Below the pieces are notes generated by a model. The model had not been told where the DNA came from and ran no database searches. It saw nothing but the letters and a program-made list of their open reading frames with translations. This document shows positions 2,234 to 12,145 of a stretch of DNA of 64,000 nt, one piece after another. Origin of the DNA: Mucor racemosus (taxonomy: Eukaryota; Mucoromycota; Mucoromycetes; Mucorales; Mucoraceae); the NCBI GenBank assembly GCA_027405735.1, contig JAPEHQ010000013.1, forward strand, positions 620,001 through 684,000, in the 5' to 3' direction. Positions within the stretch are counted from its first letter, which is position 1. Every line of letters starts with the position of its first letter. A program made the position numbers and the translations under genes.

Positions 2234-5200
2234 TTATTGATCTTTTATTTGAGATACCCAAACTGCTACTGATTCAGCAGACATTGGTCTTTGTGTCAAT
2301 ACTTCAATTCTTCCTCCTTCCTTTGATTCTATATCAATTCTAATTAAAAACGATTTATATTGTTCAACAATACTAGTTTCTATAGGTTTTAACAAAATTT
2401 GTTCCATCTTTTGATCGTTGACATATTCTCGTAATTTCTTTATCACAAATCGAATGCGTTCTTCTACTGCTTCCATAAATTGATCAGTAGATTCCTGAAC
2501 ATCCTCTTTATATATATATAAAAAAAAAGATGAAATGTCAATTGAAAATTGCATCAAAACCATGCACAAGACTTACTCTGATTCAATTTCTGCACAGGGG
2601 AATCTTGACCATTTGGTGATTTAGGTAACACTGCGGGTGGTAGAATAGTCGATAACTATTTTACATGCAAGTTAACAATTTATCTATACATTGCTGTGAT
2701 AGTTACCTTGATCAAAAATGCTGTAAGAGGTTCTACCGCACCATCAACACAATTATTGATAAATTCCTCACACACTTTTTTGATTTGAAAATCGATTTCT
2801 CTTCTTGAATCTAGACTAACTTCTACTACACGAGGCATGCCCTTTTGAGCCAAGCCGATGAGAGCATTTGGGTTAAACATGAGTGATTTCTGTTGCTGCA
2901 AAGATGATAGCGAGTCTATTATGTGCATGGCATTAAAATGATGTAATATTGTGTGTTTACATGATTTTACCTGTAACATGAGAGAAATCTAACGTTTTTC
3001 CTGCATGCACTATATTAGCTTCAAAAGGAGCGAGTTGTTCTTTTAGCACAAGCAGGTTTTTTATCAAAAATAATTCGCCATCAAGTCTTGATTTGAGTGT
3101 AGTTACTGATTCACCAGCTTTTTGAAGTGATTCATTGCATAGGGATACAGCTTCTTGAGCTAAATCTTCAAAGACTCCATTCTACTTGCAAAATATGAGC
3201 ATATACAAAAGCACTGGTAATTTATCCACAACATACCTGTACACATCTATATAACTTTGATAAAATCCACAAAGTCTTTTGTAATGTAGGAAACCAACCT
3301 CTTGTTTCATCATTACCATCAGCAAGTAAATTAGACTTTGCTGATCGAATAGAATGGGTATCTGAATTATCTTCCTCGGTGATTGCTAACGTTGCTGCAG
3401 TAGTTGTAATATTTGCATCTAATACAACAGATGTTTTTTGTTTATCTTGATCTTCATGCTGATCTTTATGTTGACGTACATTTTCAAAATCTTGCGGCTT
3501 TGGTTGGTAATTTTGAATGTCGTTATGAATAAACATTTGTGCTCTGAATACAAGTCTACCTTGTGCATCTTCCAAGACGTTCTGAATCAGATGGCCAAAT
3601 TTAACTTCATTCTTATCATCCATAATCCCTAATACTAAATATCTATTTAATATAAAGTTTTGTTTGGCTCTTTTGTTTTATTTACCCAGATCATTTTCAT
3701 CTTGCATAACATACATTAAAAATACATTACAAAGTTCAGAAAGTGTAATAATATCATTTTCATGAATAATTCGTGGTCGAAGATAATCATATAAATGGCT
3801 CGTTAGCAGGTCCAAATAGTTGCTATGATACAGTTGTTAGTAATGGAAAATCCTTTAAATAAACATGTCATCTTACTATAATTCCTGCTCCCCTGATTTT
3901 TGAAAGAAATTATAAAACAGATTGTATTCATCAGAGCAAAGACTCATCATATAAGCACACCCATTCTTTGCAAAACCAAGTAAATCTTTATCGCTAGGAC
4001 CTAATTGTTGGATCTTTTTAGAGATGAGAGGACTCAATAATTGCTGTCTTGTTTGGAAATAAGCATGTAACATATCCTCATATAATGATTGATATTCTTT
4101 ATGGTCGCATCTCTTTTCTACTTGTGCCGTTAAAGATCGAATTGTAGGTGCAATAGTTTTAAATTTAACGTAATACATTGCAATTTGTTTTCCCATAGTA
4201 GCATCTTTAGTATTCACTTGCTTGTACACATCATATCCCAATGTTTTAAGTGTAGATACTACATACATTTTGATTAATGTAATTCCTCGAGTCATGCATT
4301 GTCTGAAACGCATTAGATATAATTCAGAATCATGATATGTATGCTAAATTATTGTTTGTTTCATAAATCATTAAGCGTGTTGTGTATGTGTATAGAAGAG
4401 ACTTACATGTTCTTGCATATATTCTATACATTCATCCAATTTCTCGAGCATTGGTATGAAATCAGGTTGTAAACAAATATCATCACCTGGCGAATTGAAT
4501 AGTTTTGCAATAGGTTCTAATTGATTAAAGTATTCCAATCTAGCTGCTAATCCTTCTGCTAAACGAGTTGACCTATGTTGTTCTTCCAACAAAGTTTCAC
4601 ATGCTGTTTGAATAGATCGAGTTCTAACATCCACAAACGAATAATCCTTTTCCATATCATCAAATAATTGGCATGTTGTCTTTAAATCCTCTAAAAATTC
4701 ATCGCATGCGTTCTGATATAGTTCCACTATCGATAAATGGTTGCGATATACATCTTCCTGTCCTTTCTCCATTTCAGATTCCATAACTGCAAACCAATCG
4801 AAAAATTCTTGCAATGTCTCTATGGGTTTCTCACTGCCAATTTCGCTTGCTACATGTTTCTCTGCTGCTGTATCTGCTGCTGTAGCTTCAGCAAGTAAGT
4901 TGGCAGTGGATAAGGTCCTTGTCATAGGTGCTGAATTACCGCCTGCTAATAAGCGAGATGCAAGGACGTGTGGATTGAGTGGACTTGATGATGACACGGG
5001 CACTTGTTCTGGTGATAATCCGCCTGATGAATTCGACATGTTGCTACCAAGTGATGGTGATCCTAATAATTTATCACCAAAATACTAAAATTTTTATATA
5101 AATATATAAATATATATATATATGCAAATAAATTCATTTATATAGTTACCCAGTTGGAGGGAAGTGGTAACTCTGTACAGGCATCTTGCAAATCGTATAC

Positions 5201-5278
5201 GCTTTTCTTTTCTTTATCTGTAAGCCTGGTCTTTTCTTCCCATTCTTCTAGAGATATACCGCGCGTTACTCTTGCCAT
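2234..5278 (-). CDS. COG3: Conserved oligomeric Golgi complex subunit 3 (Sec34)
   Basis: Subunit of the COG tethering complex, which acts at the cis-Golgi in retrograde vesicle capture. Nine exons on the minus strand join in frame to 857 residues: 5278-5150, 5084-4407, 4343-3877, 3822-3686, 3628-3237, 3181-2971, 2915-2707, 2655-2577 and 2505-2234. The Sec34 core shows EFFDWFAVMESEMEKG, a coiled-coil stretch with RTRSIQTACETLLEEQHR, then LEYFNQLEPIAKLFNSPGDD and PMLEKLDECIEYMQEH; after the next intron comes MRFRQCMTRGITLIKMYVVS. These are characteristic of COG3 from yeast to human, and the length fits the family. The acidic, glutamine/histidine-rich insert near exon 5 (about 3330-3500) looks like a disordered loop. 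Start chosen at the ATG giving MARVTRGISLEEWEEK. Head-to-tail with the CNNM gene on the same strand. Confidence 0.93.
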
Positions 5279-6667
5279 AATATTATTATTTAGAATAAAG
5301 GTCCATTGTTATAAGTTTGGTATTCTTTGCTTCTACATTTCCCAGATGTTTAAAATCGGAGCACCGAATTTTTGCGACTTGATTTTGAGCTACCAAAGGG
5401 GGTTTTTTTTTTTTACTTTTCAGGGCAATATTATGCATTAATAATAAGATTTACATCAAAAATATTATATATGAGTAGTCTCAAGTAATGTAATTATAAT
5501 TATAACAAGGTGTGAGTTGTTTTCATAATATTTTTGCCAATAAATGAGTGCTATAATCAAGCCAAAAACAATAAAACCGGAGCTTAAAAACATAAATCGC
5601 AACTGGATTATTTCTCGTTCAATTTGACATTTTTCGAAAAAATTGCAACTTTAAAGAATTATTTCGTGTCTAAAGCTATAGTAACTATAAAAAGTAAAAT
5701 TAAGTATTTATGTATATTCTAATACCTTTTTTACGCTGGTGTTTTTTTATTATACATTTGTCAGCAAAAAACGTTCAATATTTTAGAAAAAGTCAATTTT
5801 TAATTATTCATAAGACAAGTCAAAAAAGTAGGCATAAAACGTTTAATTAAACAACTTTGTATGAAAAATATTGTTATTTCAGATAATTTTTGCCAGTTAA
5901 TGCCTTAGTAAAAAATCTCATTTTTGGGGCGAAAAATTGAATTTTGTCCAAAATCAAAATTTAGACGAGGTATACCTCATGGAAAATCGAGTTGAAAAAA
6001 AATATTTGGGAAATTCTATTTTATTTCATTGAATTACATCTATTGAACGAGGACTATCATTTGGTGCATTTCTGAGAGTCAAGGAACGCCGAAACGCCAC
6101 AAACACATCGATTAAGATATCAATTTAAGTAAATTTTGGCAAATTAGCAACGTATATCTGGCTATATCTTAGGTAAAACTACATTCAGAGCATATATCTA
6201 TGGAAATACGACTTTCTCTGCCTCGAGACTATTCAAAAATATTATAATTGATGTGTAACAATTTAAGTTTGGAGCCCCAATTTGCCCCTGAAACGTCGAC
6301 TTTCATTGGCTTGTCATTCATGACAACTCAAACACACCTTCCGCAATATAAGATTGAGAATGCATAATAAATCAAAACAAATAATTCTTATTGTAATCGT
6401 ATCTTTGTTAGTATGGAATTATCGATTTTAAAAGTACTATTTTGTATAAATCATGTGAGTTTAAGGTTTGTTCTCCCATGATTCAAGATCTGAAAATACT
6501 GAGAGGGTATAGCAAGCTAAGTAGTTCAAAAAGGAAAGAGAGATTTGATTAGTTGACTGGGTAACAAATGTGGAAGGATTTTACTTACCAAAGGTGAATT
6601 TGAATTTAGAAGATTAAACAATGAATTGATTTAGTATTGAGTTATGTCTAATGAATATAAACTTACC
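5279..6667. repeat. Intergenic with a diverged dispersed repeat
   Basis: Between the COG3 start and the Fanzor stop. The stretch 5800-6000 resembles, in inverted orientation, 46700-46480: both carry GAGGTATACCTCATGGAAAATCGA and a similar run around CCTTAGT and CTCATTTTT. It is non-coding and AT-rich. The part just below 6667 is the 3' flank of the Fanzor gene, where a guide RNA would be expected in this family, but I cannot identify one by eye. Confidence 0.5.
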
Positions 6668-9600
6668 TCAAAGAGCCGAAGCTCTCGTCGTACTACCCCC
6701 AACGGAGGGCCAGCTTGTCTGCTGTTTTCTATCCGAAAATGACAGAGCTAATTGAGAAAACATTGCTTGTTTCGCTGTTGTGTTTTTTGGATCAAAGCAA
6801 GGAAAGGTGTAACCAAGCATAAGCTGAGCAGCACCAGCGAGGCCAATCGCTAATGCAGAAAGACAATCCCTGCTCATGACGACAGACTTATTTGGGCAGA
6901 CATCGTTCAAACAAATGAATGACCCATTAGTCTTCTTGACTGTACCATCTTTTGCAGTATACGGATGTGATAATTTGCTGAAACACCAAAGGCAGGTCTG
7001 AGAACTGTTGTGTTCATTAGTAATCAATGTAGGCGTATATCGAGAATGTCTCAGTTCTTTCCAATATCCACCAAATCGCAAATGTCCTTTAATAGGAGAC
7101 CTGATTGCATGCCCACGATCTCCAATAAACATAATAGGGGACGATGATTTCGTAAATTTTCGTTCCTTTGATGCAAGTCTATCATAAAATCGATTTTTCG
7201 TTAATTCTAATCGTCTTTTTTTATTAGCACTCGATCTCGAAAAGTAAAATTGACGAATACATGACTTGGCTTGGGAATGGCGAGTGAATGTTGCATCCAG
7301 TTCATCAATTGTACCACATTGCTGTATACTGGACTCAGAAAGATCGCTTTCAAGATCAGCAACATTTTGACCTAAGACTGTGAGGCGCTTTCTTCTATTG
7401 AGCGAAGACGAAAAAGAAGCAAGACCACTATGTTGGCGGAGGGCGGCACTCCTTACCTTGAATGATGTGGGCAATTTCTTCAACTGAGCGTCTTCTTTCT
7501 CTTCCATATAAGCGTCTTCTAAAATTTGTGCATTGAAAATTAGCCACAAGCAAGATATTAACGAGCATTAAATTACCTTGATCTTGTAATACTTGAAAGC
7601 GATTGTACAAACGAAGATGATATTTCAACCTATCGACACCAAAAGCAACTGTCTCCGTGACATTAATAATACCGTTGTCTGTCCCTGAAAATACAAGTTG
7701 GCCTTTATCTACTTTTTGATCAATAATACACTCCTCCACCTTGTGATGGCAAGGTTTGTTGGGCTCGACTGGTATTATCTGTCTTCTTTCGGCAGAGGAG
7801 GTAGCGTCATATCTCTGCTTGTAGATGTTATTATTGGCACTGGACAGTTCTTGCTTTGCTTTCACTACTTCTTGAATCAATTGTCTCTTCTTTTTCTTGG
7901 CCACTTGTATCTCTTTATGCAGCGAGTCTCTATCTATATTTTCATCATTCCATTTTTTTTTCAGTTGAAAAGCACTTTCTGAACCAAGTAGATATTTATT
8001 AAGTGTAATTTGAGCGTTCTTCAACCTTTTCTCTATTGTGGTCTTCTGGTCAATCAATGCTGCAATTCTGCTGTTGATCTCATTGCTTCTTGTGGATGTC
8101 TGAGTCACAGGAGGTTGCTGTTTATTCTTCTGTTTATGCTTTTGGTAATTTCTAGTACCAAGGATTCTCACACACTGAAGTCCAGGTAGTACATGCATAC
8201 GGTAGGCGAATTGCAACCCGTAGCCAGCACATATTGTTTTTAGACGATCTATGTCGAAAAAACTACTAAACACAGCATCCTTTTGAGACGTAACTGAAGC
8301 CGCACGAATGACGTTCCCTTCGAAATCATGGAGTACCATCTTATGTTCCAGCTTTCGAGCACAAAACAAAGAGTGTAATGTAGTAGCATCAATCCATAAC
8401 GCGTGCAGATTTGTAGGCCTGATGATGGGGGTCAATTTCACCACTTGCTCATGGTAACCAACAGAACGCAATACTTGATTAACCATCAAGAGAAAGGGAA
8501 TTTGATGTGAAAAGACATGGTATGTGGCTCTAGATGCCATGTATGGCTTTACGAATTTAATAATCTTCAAGATGACCTCCACTTCTTTGTCGCTAATGTT
8601 GCTCAATTTACCAACAAAATATGCTTTGCAAATTGTTTTTTCCTCAAAAAGAGCTGCTCTTGTTATCTGCTTTAACTGGTTTATTCTTTTTCGCGAGGTG
8701 TCCTCTTCTACCAAAATATCTTCCATGTCAACATCTTGAATCTCTTCTTCTACCAACGCTTCTTGCATTTTGATACCTTGCTCTTCTTCTTGTTGACGTT
8801 GCTGCTCTCGTCTCACTTGCCGCTTTTGTTTCTAGAAGAAGGTTGTTTAATATACTTGTTCAATTCGATTGTTCATCAATCTTACCTCTCTTTGCAAAAC
8901 ATCTGCATATGAGTTCAGCCTTTGCTGACACAAGCTAGCTTTCCATTGCTTAACAACCCAATCTCCTCCTTTCTCGATATAACGATTCCTTCTTTTAATC
9001 TCGTCAGCGAAAAGTCTTCTGCGTCCATTATAAGTTTTGTTGATGAGTGACATCGAGTTTACTGGAATGGCACAATTGTTGTTGGGAGGCTGTCTATTCT
9101 TTCCTTTATTCTTTCCTTTGAGCTCCTCGCGTTTTTTCTTGAATTCTTGATCACGAGCAGGAGATAAATGGACAATCAATAGAATATTCAAGAGCCTGTT
9201 CAATGCTTTGTTTACGATTGTATTATCTGCCCACATATTCATGAAATTGGCGATATAAACATTTCTTGCCATTTTCATAACGTGAGACGACAAATCATTG
9301 TAAACATTCTCCTCATCACGCCCAAGTAAATTTACTATTGCTTTATGAAGTCGTGCCGTATTCAGGGTGGATTTGCTAATTCCTTTTGATCCAAAGTAAG
9401 TTGAATGGATTTGATCAAAGTGAGCCTCTTGGAATAATGCATTGTACTCTTCTTTCAGGCTATCAGTCTGCAGGAATTGACTATTTAAGGGCTTAGGCAC
9501 AATCACATCCTCGTGTAGATATCCTACTGGTAACACTGGATTGAGACTTTGTCCCTCTTGGTGCACTAATTGAATATTGCCGCTATTTGTGATAAATTGA

Positions 9601-10280
9601 TTGTCTTTGAAAAGCAGCAACATTTTCATTACTTGCTTGCTGAAATCAGCCAAGTAATCTGAAGCTTGTTCAATGGTTTTATTGATAGTACCAATGAATG
9701 TTGATCGACAATTTTGTGGCAAATCCTTTCGAATAACTGATGAGAAGGATGCAGAGCAAGTTCTATGTGTTACGTCGTCTTCTACTTCATTATCATCTAT
9801 TTCTTCCGGTTCTTCTTCATCTACTTCTTCTTGCTCTTCAACGCCTTCTTGAGCTGCAGTGGATTCTTCTTGTATCGTTACTGAATCTTTGAGGGATTCA
9901 AAATTTTCTTTTACATAGTCTTTCCAATGTCCAATGCTTTTCTTTTTGGTTGTTCTTGTTACACGATTTAGATACACTACAATTGAATTTACTGGTGCAT
10001 TGATGCTCTGTTCAGCGCTCGAGACCACACCTCTTGGAAGTTGTTTTAACTGCATCAATGTTTTGTATAAATCATTGAAAGACTCGTTTTCATCATGGCA
10101 TGTTTTGATATGCTTTATGATTCTATGTCTAAATTGAGTTTTCAATGAGTTCATATAAGCTTCATCATCATCAGTTGTTGCTCTTCTACGACTAGTTGTT
10201 TGTGTTTCCAAAGTTGCTGGTAAATTTCTCCTTGTAGTGCCAGGAACGTATATATTTAATTGTTTTCTTTTTATGTGCAT
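6668..10280 (-). CDS. Fanzor (eukaryotic TnpB-like RNA-guided nuclease) homologue
   Basis: Fanzor proteins are eukaryotic relatives of bacterial TnpB and cut DNA guided by an RNA encoded next to the gene. Three exons (10280-8886, 8831-7577, 7518-6668) join without a stop to 1,166 residues. The N-terminal 465 residues are family-variable, with an acidic tract around 9770-9850. A coiled coil lies near residues 728-796. The RuvC-like C-terminus shows FSGTDNGIINV (candidate catalytic Asp850), IMFIGDRGHAIRSP (around 1012-1025), then TNEHNSSQTCLWC (candidate Glu1052, Cys1059/1062), CLNDVC (Cys1086/1091) and MSRDCLSALAIGLAG (candidate Asp1101). Order and spacing match the Fanzor RuvC-I / GDxxxxRG / N-E-x-N-(T/S)-S / zinc-ribbon / RuvC-III layout. 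The frame stays open to 10322 through a non-ATG codon; I prefer ATG 10280 (MHIKRKQLNIYVPG). All candidate catalytic and zinc residues are present, so it may be active. The stop TGA abuts a donor-like GTAAGT. Catalytic roles are by family analogy. Confidence 0.85.
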
Positions 10281-10489
10281 TGAGATGTTATTACAATAGA
10301 CAAAGAAGAAAAGAAAGATCAAATGTTGTCGATGCTAATACATTCAATGTTGGCCAACAGCGGGGTTTCCTCGCTCACGCTGTGGGGCCAAATCAATCCA
10401 AATGATTTATTTGGTTTTGCAGAATGTCAAGTTCGCAAGTTGTTAAAAAAGGTTAATTGCAGATATATGAACTTTTTGTTGTTTTGATA

Positions 10490-10666
10490 TTATACCGTAC
10501 ATACCCTAGTGAAACTTTCAGTATAAGGTACAAACGTTGGGTGGTTTTGATCTACAGCATCCATGAGAACATGTTGGTTTTCGATTTCTGCTTCGATTTC
10601 TTCTTCATCTTCAACAATAAGACGTCTTTTACAAATATTATTCTCGGTAGGGGATGGGGAGCTCAT
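10490..10666 (-). CDS. Short acidic ORF upstream of Fanzor, possible extra first exon or leader
   Basis: A 58-codon ATG frame reads MSSPSPTENNICKRRLIVED, then an acidic run EEEIEAEIENQ. It ends either at TAA (10490) or at a donor-like GTATGT after PYTESFTR. It lies about 210 bases before the Fanzor ATG on the same strand. Its phase does not fit the acceptors I can see in front of the Fanzor frame, so I cannot join them. It may be an upstream exon of the same gene, a separate short protein, or chance. The composition is not low-complexity noise, hence listed. Confidence 0.35.
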   Translation of the reverse strand: MSSPSPTENNICKRRLIVEDEEEIEAEIENQHVLMDAVDQNHPTFVPYTESFTRVCTV

Positions 10667-10946
10667 GGTTTTTTTGTATAAAAATAATGCTTTAAGTAAA
10701 ATATTGATGACGAGTATGTAGATTTTGATTATTTATTATTTAGTAGCTAACATATTAGGTAAATCTACAGGAGAATCAAAAGATAGTTTTCTTTATTTAT
10801 AGTGTTTTAAGGGCTATTAATACAAATAAACCAAAACAAACTACTGTGCGACTCTTATTGCCAACATGTCAAAGGCTTTTCACAAGTCAAAACTTGTGAA
10901 TACTACTACTGTCCTTGCATATTTTTCAGTATAAGCAACTCAAACC

Positions 10947-11113
10947 CAGTATCTTCACCCTGAGACTCAACCAGACTCAAGGTATTTTCTATCTGACTTC
11001 GAAATTAAGCGGGTGACTCAAAAATGCTTTTTAATTTTTCAATTTTACTGCTTAATTTCGAAGTCAGATCGAAAATACCTTGAGTCTGGTTGAGTCTCAG
11101 GGTGAAAATACTG
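10947..11113. repeat. Near-perfect 64-bp foldback (inverted repeat)
   Basis: Arms 10947-11010 and 11050-11113 are reverse complements over 64 bases with only about two mismatches, around a 39-base loop. The arm starts CAGTAT, contains CACCCTGAGACTCAACC and ends GAAATTAAGC. It lies about 670 bases upstream of the Fanzor ATG and about 250 bases upstream of the secreted-protein gene. It could be a MITE/foldback transposon or a transcribed hairpin. No target duplication is obvious. Confidence 0.85.
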
Positions 11114-11365
11114 TTATATGCAATAGGAAACAGTTTTCAAGCAGCGTTTTTGACATGAGATATTGCACATCTATTAATGCCTTTGGAGTATAAGAGGAAT
11201 AAATATAGAGCATTGTAATTTTATTTCATACAAAGGTGAAAACATCTAAATATGCATACTTATTACAGGGAATGCTTTGGTATCAGTCTTGATTCAAATT
11301 GAATATAAAAAGAGACAATGTATAGATTACATTTTCTATCAATAAAAAATACATTAAATTTTGAA

Positions 11366-11993
11366 ATGAAGTTGATCTTGGCGCTTTTATTTACAATTGC
11401 TGCTGTTGTCTCTGCAGCAGCTACTACACACGAGCGCCGAACTGAAAAGGGAGAAGCTATGATGATGTATGGTTACAATCCGCCTCGAGTCAATCCAGAA
11501 CATTGTAAGGGATTCCGTATTGATTATCCTGCTTCACCAGGATTAGGATTTGAAGCAGATTCGCATCAATATCTTAAATGGACAGTAGATGAAGATATTC
11601 CAAATTCACCAAATATCATTACTCGTATTCGTATTTTGAATTCTACTCAACATAATCACCGTGTCATTGGCGAAAATATCAGTAGGTTACATGCTAACAA
11701 TGACAACAAGCGCTTATATTTACTAACTTGATTTGATAGCATTGTATAACAAGAAAAACACTGGCTCTGTTTTTTTCCCACTTGAAGTTGACGATGTTAC
11801 TGGATTTTATCATTACCGCATCATGGTAAATTACGTTGGTCAACCCGTTCACTGCGTTTACGAATCTGTTCCATTTATGGTCGTTCAAAATCCTTACAAG
11901 AACTTCTTGGCTGGAGGACAGCCTAGTGCCATTAAAAATCCTAGTTACACATATTTAACAACACCTATAGAGAATCTTTATGATTTGAAATAG
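11366..11993 (+). CDS. Small secreted protein, possibly Kre9/KNH1-like domain
   Basis: Two exons, 11366-11681 and 11740-11993, join to 189 residues; the intron carries a perfect TACTAAC branch point. The protein opens with a clear signal peptide (MKLILALLFTIAAVVSAAA). The mature part has beta-rich segments: HQYLKWTVDEDIPNSP, IITRIRILNSTQHNHRVIGE, NKKNTGSVFFPLEVDDVTG, YHYRIMVNYVGQPVHC and ESVPFMVVQNPY. The W-x-x-D, I-x-I-x-N and final tG-Y-x-(Y/V)-R-(I/V)-V pattern resembles the immunoglobulin-like N-terminal domain of fungal Kre9/Knh1 and related Ser/Thr-rich surface proteins, but I hold this loosely. I chose the second ATG (11366) because it starts exactly at the signal peptide; an upstream in-frame ATG is at 11318. 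No GPI or membrane tail, so probably secreted or wall-associated. Confidence 0.75.
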
Positions 11994-12145
11994 TAAAATG
12001 ACGTAGTTTTTTTTCATTTCTTCGTCTTGGCTAACATGTCTATTTATAACTTTTGGCTTTGTCTTTGCTTTGCCTCGCTCAATAAAAAGAAAACCTTGGA
12101 AAAAATAGTTGTCTATTTGTTTTTCTTCTTTATACTTTAATATAT

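Follow-up and report, generated by a model that had tools for sequence, protein, structure and literature searches.

The locus and its gene

The window analysed here, a 64,000-nucleotide stretch of the Mucor racemosus contig JAPEHQ010000013.1 (positions 620,001 to 684,000), carries on its minus strand a spliced gene (10280–6668) that, judged from its sequence, encodes a Fanzor1-like protein of unusual size. The gene fills a multi-copy element, whose features are given below in window coordinates (A and B denote two subfamilies of the gene, A being the window type).

6502..11113, minus strand: whole element, 4,612 bp, with its 3′ end TATACCCTCT at 6502 and its 5′ end CAGTATTTTCACCC at 11113 (23-copy alignment)
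8886..10280, minus strand: exon 1, residues 1–465 (joined reading frame)
7577..8831, minus strand: exon 2, residues 466–883, with the RuvC-I D850 codon at 7677–7679 (joined frame and motif position)
6668..7518, minus strand: exon 3, residues 884–1166 and stop, with E1052 (7013–7015) and D1101 (6866–6868) (joined frame and motif positions)
6896..6994, minus strand: four-cysteine (C4) zinc ribbon, C1059–C1091 (cysteine positions)
6502..6667, minus strand: 3′ non-coding end, candidate guide-RNA scaffold and/or recombination site (A–B conservation)
6496..6501, minus strand: target CAGTAT at the 3′ junction (24 of 24 3′ junctions read [CT]AGTA, 20 of 24 CAGTAT)
11108..11113, minus strand: CAGTAT at the 5′ junction, with the flanking AA at 11114–11115 (AA in 19 of 21 5′ flanks)
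10947..11113, no strand assigned: 5′-end palindrome with 64-nt arms, one mismatch, and CAGTAT at both outer ends (DNA fold z −20.2)

The three exons, separated by introns of 54 and 58 nt (both GT..AG), join into 1,166 codons without a stop. D850 lies in GTDNG, E1052 in NEHNSS, and R1100-D1101 in SRDCLSA, and the ribbon cysteines are C1059, C1062, C1086, and C1091. The first-pass annotation had proposed this stop-free frame with its RuvC acids and four-cysteine ribbon, and we could confirm it. The frame is not a product of chance, since it is intact in 18 of the 23 genomic copies (broken in L008, L021, L023, L036, and L037), since genes of subfamily B (43–50% identical to the window protein) are interrupted by introns at the same two positions, and since a further subfamily, C, is colinear in a single frame. 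Subfamily C occupies ten genomic places (for example C13:1772372-1775266) and is 30–31% identical to the related protein P0002 across P0002 residues 98–1062. Its intronless frames comprise 1,167–1,196 codons, eight of the ten being stop-free in the aligned part, so that the length of the protein does not depend on the splice model alone. A four-exon model with a third intron at 7456–7395 was rejected, as it breaks the frame at 916 codons.

A multi-copy element with a fixed target

The window-type gene (subfamily A) was found at 23 places in the 53.2-Mb genome, a 24th match being a 75% remnant. The element limits are the points at which homology among the 23 copies stops and unrelated flanks begin. 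Across 22 A copies (L036 excluded), diversity was 0.014–0.017 within the exons versus 0.61–0.63 immediately beyond the element ends, and the median coding difference was 1.6%. Relative to the majority base, 176 variants change an amino acid and 137 are silent, giving a per-site ratio of 0.41 relative to silent changes (exon 1, 0.37; exon 2, 0.54; exon 3, 0.32); these counts take in the broken copies, and the ratios carry no significance test. The earlier proposal of recent arrival or maintenance is supported and sharpened by the small coding difference and the number of intact frames. The locus itself had been described as a single inserted gene, but it represents one of the copies of a transposable element, and a Crypton has the same ends.

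In gene orientation, the element starts with CAGTATCTTCACCC and finishes with TATACCCTCT, followed by the target CAGTAT. Insertion occurs at AA^CAGTAT, leaving CAGTAT at both junctions. We could read 24 3′ junctions (23 A, one B) and 21 5′ junctions; the two 5′ junctions without a preceding AA belong to the B copies on C13 and C12. Alignment of the copies revealed no inverted terminal repeats at the element ends. Among the 19 copies with both junctions read, six deviate from the common 5′ end. Four of these (the window copy, L009, L013, and L018) copy their own 3′ flank over 10–14 bases, and two (L006 and L015) have variant 5′ ends that do not match their own flank. Over all 19 copies, 5′ ends match their own flanks more closely than under permutation (p 0.0002). 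We infer that the flank-matching ends result from a crossover inside the shared target, with mismatches being resolved in either direction; a tyrosine recombinase would be expected to leave such ends. The 5′-end palindrome varies in length among the copies and is shorter in, e.g., L020 and L024; L017 and L021 have other sequence at their 5′ end, and L016 lacks the outer palindrome arm.

The joined flanks of L013 and L026 matched only their own two halves in the genome, i.e., no empty sites were found elsewhere for these copies. Frames across 21 joined flanks were of ordinary length (29–48 codons) and are therefore uninformative. No tRNA lies beside copy L024. At one locus (L021 with L056, on C2), an A gene and a B gene stand head to head. 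Outside the element, an 84-base repeat lies near the left end of two copies (window 5904–5987 and L025 178–260, 79% identical). As for the neighbouring genes, the proposed left neighbour COG3 was borne out by a COG3_N match (E 2.6e-31), and the tested piece of the right neighbour, a putative secreted-protein gene in the first-pass annotation, had no Pfam match (window 11366–11728).

A sibling element carries a predicted Crypton-type recombinase

A genome search with the 5′ end led to three further places, C26, C13, and C12. The sibling element on C26 (about 7.6 kb) begins with CAGTATCTTCACCC, continues with a recombinase gene and a three-exon B gene, whose protein is 43–50% identical to the window protein, and ends with GATATACCCTCT followed by CAGTAT. 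The recombinase domain matches PF16787 (NDC10_II) with E 4.9e-42 on C26, and 3.7e-44 was also obtained among the sibling elements; on C13, the next exon matches PF12550 (GCR1_C; E 1.1e-7). We take both to be domains of fungal Cryptons, and the sibling recombinase is predicted to be a Crypton-type tyrosine recombinase. It occurs at only these three genome places (94–100% identity), each time adjoining a B gene; 10 of the 13 B genes found and all 23 A elements lack an adjacent gene of this kind. The recombinase sequence is THANL in the C26 copy and THANR in those on C13 and C12, and the C12 copy is spread over more than one frame.

Several Crypton traits come together: tyrosine recombinase domains (in the sibling only), the lack of terminal inverted repeats (TIRs), short direct terminal repeats, and a fixed target. 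The window element, which has no recombinase gene, is best read as a putative recombinase-less partner of the sibling that is moved in trans.

The genome also holds a second family of Crypton-type recombinases at about 40 places, mostly as 412-codon frames that are 34–35% identical to the partner recombinase (G000 C1, C2, C8, C11, C13, and C19). Seven pairs of them are spaced 2,904–2,906 bp apart, which looks like a 2.9-kb element inserted next to a copy of itself.

Fanzor kinship and size of the protein

Bao and Jurka (2013, PMC3627910) give the Fanzor/TnpB signature as D-X(125,275)-[TS]-[TS]-X-X-[C4 zinc finger]-X(5,50)-RD. The window protein fits it from D850 onward, through S1055-S1056, C1059, C1062, C1086, C1091, and R1100-D1101, whose pattern, as rendered in this analysis, was matched by 0 of 20,000 shuffled versions of it. 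The full signature is present in 8 of 23 family sequences tested; most others are fragments (P0004 and P0005 are without the C-terminal half, P0003 ends inside it), and P0009, P0010, P0017, P0018, and P0019 have an altered cysteine or TS pair or an early end. Members of A, B, and C, as well as P0001/P0002, retain the three acids and the four cysteines. Furthermore, the position of E1052 ahead of the ribbon agrees with that of the catalytic Glu of Fanzors (Fz), TnpB, and Cas12a, which PMC11423790 places in the loop that connects the fifth strand to the TNB domain.

A structure model of the RuvC half, built from a 23-sequence alignment, was closest to viral “transposases” and, in the PDB, weakly to the Spizellomyces Fanzor (SpuFz1), its first fold match there; Fanzor or TnpB-type proteins were matched in two structure libraries. 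Coiled-coil fold matches (PI3K p85, Rad50, prefoldin, and others) were set aside, as they span only the long helices 108–220 of the model, and a full-length fold of P0001 from 11 sequences (pLDDT 41.8) was discarded. The zinc-ribbon profile PF07282 gave sub-threshold matches in 6 of 23 members (best E 0.085), the window protein not being among those listed. Neither the comparison of the whole window protein with PDB sequences (nothing significant) nor an NCBIfam search of L058, two exon-3 pieces, and P0001 (nothing of note) added to this. The Fanzor identity given in the first-pass annotation is accordingly backed by the published signature, the motifs kept in relatives, and the fold comparison, though curated profiles stay below threshold.

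The RuvC-I acid of SpuFz1 is D383 (PMC11423790); with D850 in its place, the window protein has about 470 extra residues before RuvC. Fz1 proteins are described as mostly 600–700 residues long, and PMC10711439 mentions some that reach about 800, whereas the longest members seen of the window family comprise 1,082–1,196 residues. The N-terminal half, for which the first-pass annotation had suggested a possible extra function, is conserved and constrained (see exon 1 above) and matches no Pfam family. The stretch between RuvC-I and RuvC-II is helical and longer than in Fz1.

Relatives among the matches listed come from Mucor circinelloides, Rhizopus arrhizus, Mucor plumbeus, and Parasitella parasitica; in the first search of public proteins, scoring was limited to the 7,994 candidates with the most words in common, and these are therefore a lower bound. 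Fifteen proteins related to the C-terminal half come from Mucor velutinosus, M. fragilis, Rhizopus microsporus, R. delemar, and Phycomyces blakesleeanus, and the RuvC and ribbon motifs are kept in the Mucor, Rhizopus, and Phycomyces relatives. Viral contigs contained no relative of the window family and none of a canonical Fanzor piece. The same genome has five canonical Fanzor-type genes (L001–L005; L038–L042) above the PF07282 cut-off, four of them near-identical, and a piece of L001 matches SpuFz1 in the PDB (E 5.9e-4). These canonical proteins read DEFMTSRICNIC and WQRDINAAKNML where the window family has NEHNSSQTCLWC and SRDCLSALAIG; beyond the motifs, sequence similarity to Fanzors is too low to place the window family in a protein tree.

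The 3′ non-coding end

Because the element ends at 6502, only 6502–6667 of the region that the first-pass annotation had put forward for a guide RNA (5,900–6,800) is element DNA. From stop to element end, A and B are identical at 109 of 160 aligned positions (score 65.5 versus a maximum of 29.5 in 500 shuffles), with the shared blocks TGAGGTA.GT, TACTAAAT, TTGGTAAGTAA, ACTAATCA, and TATACCCTCT. In the intron comparisons, which are weak controls (the B intron-2 slice was off by one base), 11 of 500 and 147 of 500 shuffles reached the observed score. Conservation above chance is likewise seen in the 300 bases preceding the start (0 of 200 shuffles reach the score), so the 3′ end is not the sole conserved non-coding part. 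An Rfam search of window 5000–12000 gave no match.

A and B share a splice-donor-like GGTAAGT directly behind the stop and, within the 3′ end, branch-site-like blocks (window 6502–6667; L057 2579–2765). We take these blocks to resemble splice donors and branch sites, and the transcript may therefore be spliced close to the element end.

Discussion

The window holds a member of a Crypton-type family that is present in many copies, was recently active, and comprises forms with and without a recombinase, all with common ends. We consider it probable that this is a mobile element with a very large Fanzor1-like protein, comprising a RuvC and zinc-ribbon half and about 470 extra N-terminal residues, which moves as a Crypton, the action of the recombinase and the flank-guided cutting of the empty site being the inferred parts. 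Elements of the window type would be excised in trans by the recombinase, which would then insert them through a crossover at CAGTAT. The Fanzor-like protein would load an RNA from the element 3′ end, with the 3′ flank as guide, and would cut the site that excision has emptied; repair with an intact copy as template would then bring the element back. As CAGTAT also stands at the occupied 3′ junction, the target-adjacent motif would need to include the conserved AA, in which case only the empty site (AACAGTAT plus flank) would be cut. A two-part Crypton system of early-diverging fungi, in which the recombinase excises via AACAGTAT, a giant Fanzor takes the 3′ flank as its guide and cuts the vacated site so as to compel the element to return, and the AA separates empty site from self, is a more tentative proposal that we regard as possible.

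Four points weigh against this reading: the whole window protein had no significant Pfam match (best E 0.05), the profile–profile test for Fanzor kinship was not significant, folding of the 3′ end gave no stable or unusual RNA structure (z 0.10 and −1.00), and the recombinase copies are possibly defective. The two profile results are what an unrelated zinc-ribbon family with a C-terminal motif convergent on Fanzor would give. Such convergence is nevertheless very improbable, as the whole published signature is present with correct spacing, the Glu sits in the loop preceding the ribbon as in Fanzors, both structure libraries returned Fanzor or TnpB-type proteins, and the gene sits in a transposon. 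We also give little credence to the large protein being itself the transposase and the sibling recombinase an accidental passenger. This would suit the absence of an adjacent recombinase gene from all 23 window-type elements and from 10 of the 13 B-type ones, and 13 of the 23 + 13 would not be needed for explaining the copies if the protein acted alone; yet the ends bear the marks of site-specific recombination that a Crypton recombinase makes (short direct repeats, fixed target, crossover-like end exchange), and TnpB is dispensable for transposition of bacterial elements according to Bao and Jurka (2013).

The protein could, furthermore, be a Fanzor-related RuvC nuclease that works without RNA guidance in another role, e.g., as a transposition helper, an end-binding protein, or a regulator acting through its N-terminal half. 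The long, constrained extension relative to SpuFz1 and the 3′ end without a stable fold speak for such a loss of guidance. We think it unlikely, given that all three subfamilies as well as P0001/P0002 keep the acids and cysteines, and that the 3′ end is the best conserved non-coding stretch tested, as would be expected of a guide scaffold, although a recombination site would look the same. The protein probably serves to cut the empty site under RNA guidance, which we regard as its likeliest, though putative, role.

Fanzor1 proteins (SpuFz1 of Spizellomyces, GtFz1, and PpFz1 of Parasitella) share with the window family the C-terminal signature, the Glu beside the ribbon, a transposon home, and a fungal host. 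The window family differs in its length, its sub-threshold PF07282 match, and its ribbon spacing (C-x2-C...C-x4-C). PpFz1 is reported to have an insertion, too, between RuvC-I and RuvC-II (FRI, about 100 residues) where the window family has its longer helical stretch. With Cryptons, the sibling has in common the NDC10_II and GCR1_C tyrosine recombinase, the direct terminal repeat, and the lack of TIRs, whereas the window element carries the Fanzor-like gene alone. IS200/IS605 and IS607 with TnpB, and their TnpB-only relatives, likewise combine recombinase and RuvC nuclease, nuclease-only derivatives with the same ends, and a fixed target; they differ in that the present system is eukaryotic, its gene is spliced, and its recombinase (Crypton tyrosine) belongs to neither bacterial class.

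A Fanzor–Crypton association is already known in kind. Crypton recombinases are named among the Fanzor1 partners (PMC10711439), and Bao and Jurka (2013, PMC3627910) report Fanzor1 in Mucor, Rhizopus, and Phycomyces. They describe MCi-2 of Mucor circinelloides as Fanzor-coding, with no recognizable TIRs and with 11–12-bp direct repeats, and MCi-2A as having a partial Crypton transposase; its class was left open because Cryptons were not known to make target-site duplications. Compared by description, MCi-2 and the window element share the Fanzor gene, the Crypton link, the lack of TIRs, and direct repeats. The repeats of MCi-2 are ATAATTNNNN(N), whereas the target here is AACAGTAT, and a crossover inside this target accounts for the repeat. 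We found no other account in the open full-text literature on Fanzor with Crypton or with Mucor, subscription papers lying mostly outside this scope. New here is that a Fanzor-like gene fills a multi-copy element that shares both ends with a sibling carrying a Crypton recombinase, the likely engine of both.

Most known Fanzors come from elements that lack a transposase or whose transposase is unclear; in the case of SpuFz1, its repeats were reported to flank no transposase. In the present family, the ends, the target site, and the recombinase-bearing sibling are all known, so that excision, reinsertion, and guide choice become testable in one system. The findings also bear on the old doubt about Crypton-linked Fanzors of Mucor, as short “target duplications” can come from crossover inside a shared target. 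They point to a widespread Fanzor-like lineage that standard profiles miss, and if the proposed system is real, the 470-residue N-terminal extension would be a module unseen so far in any RNA-guided nuclease.
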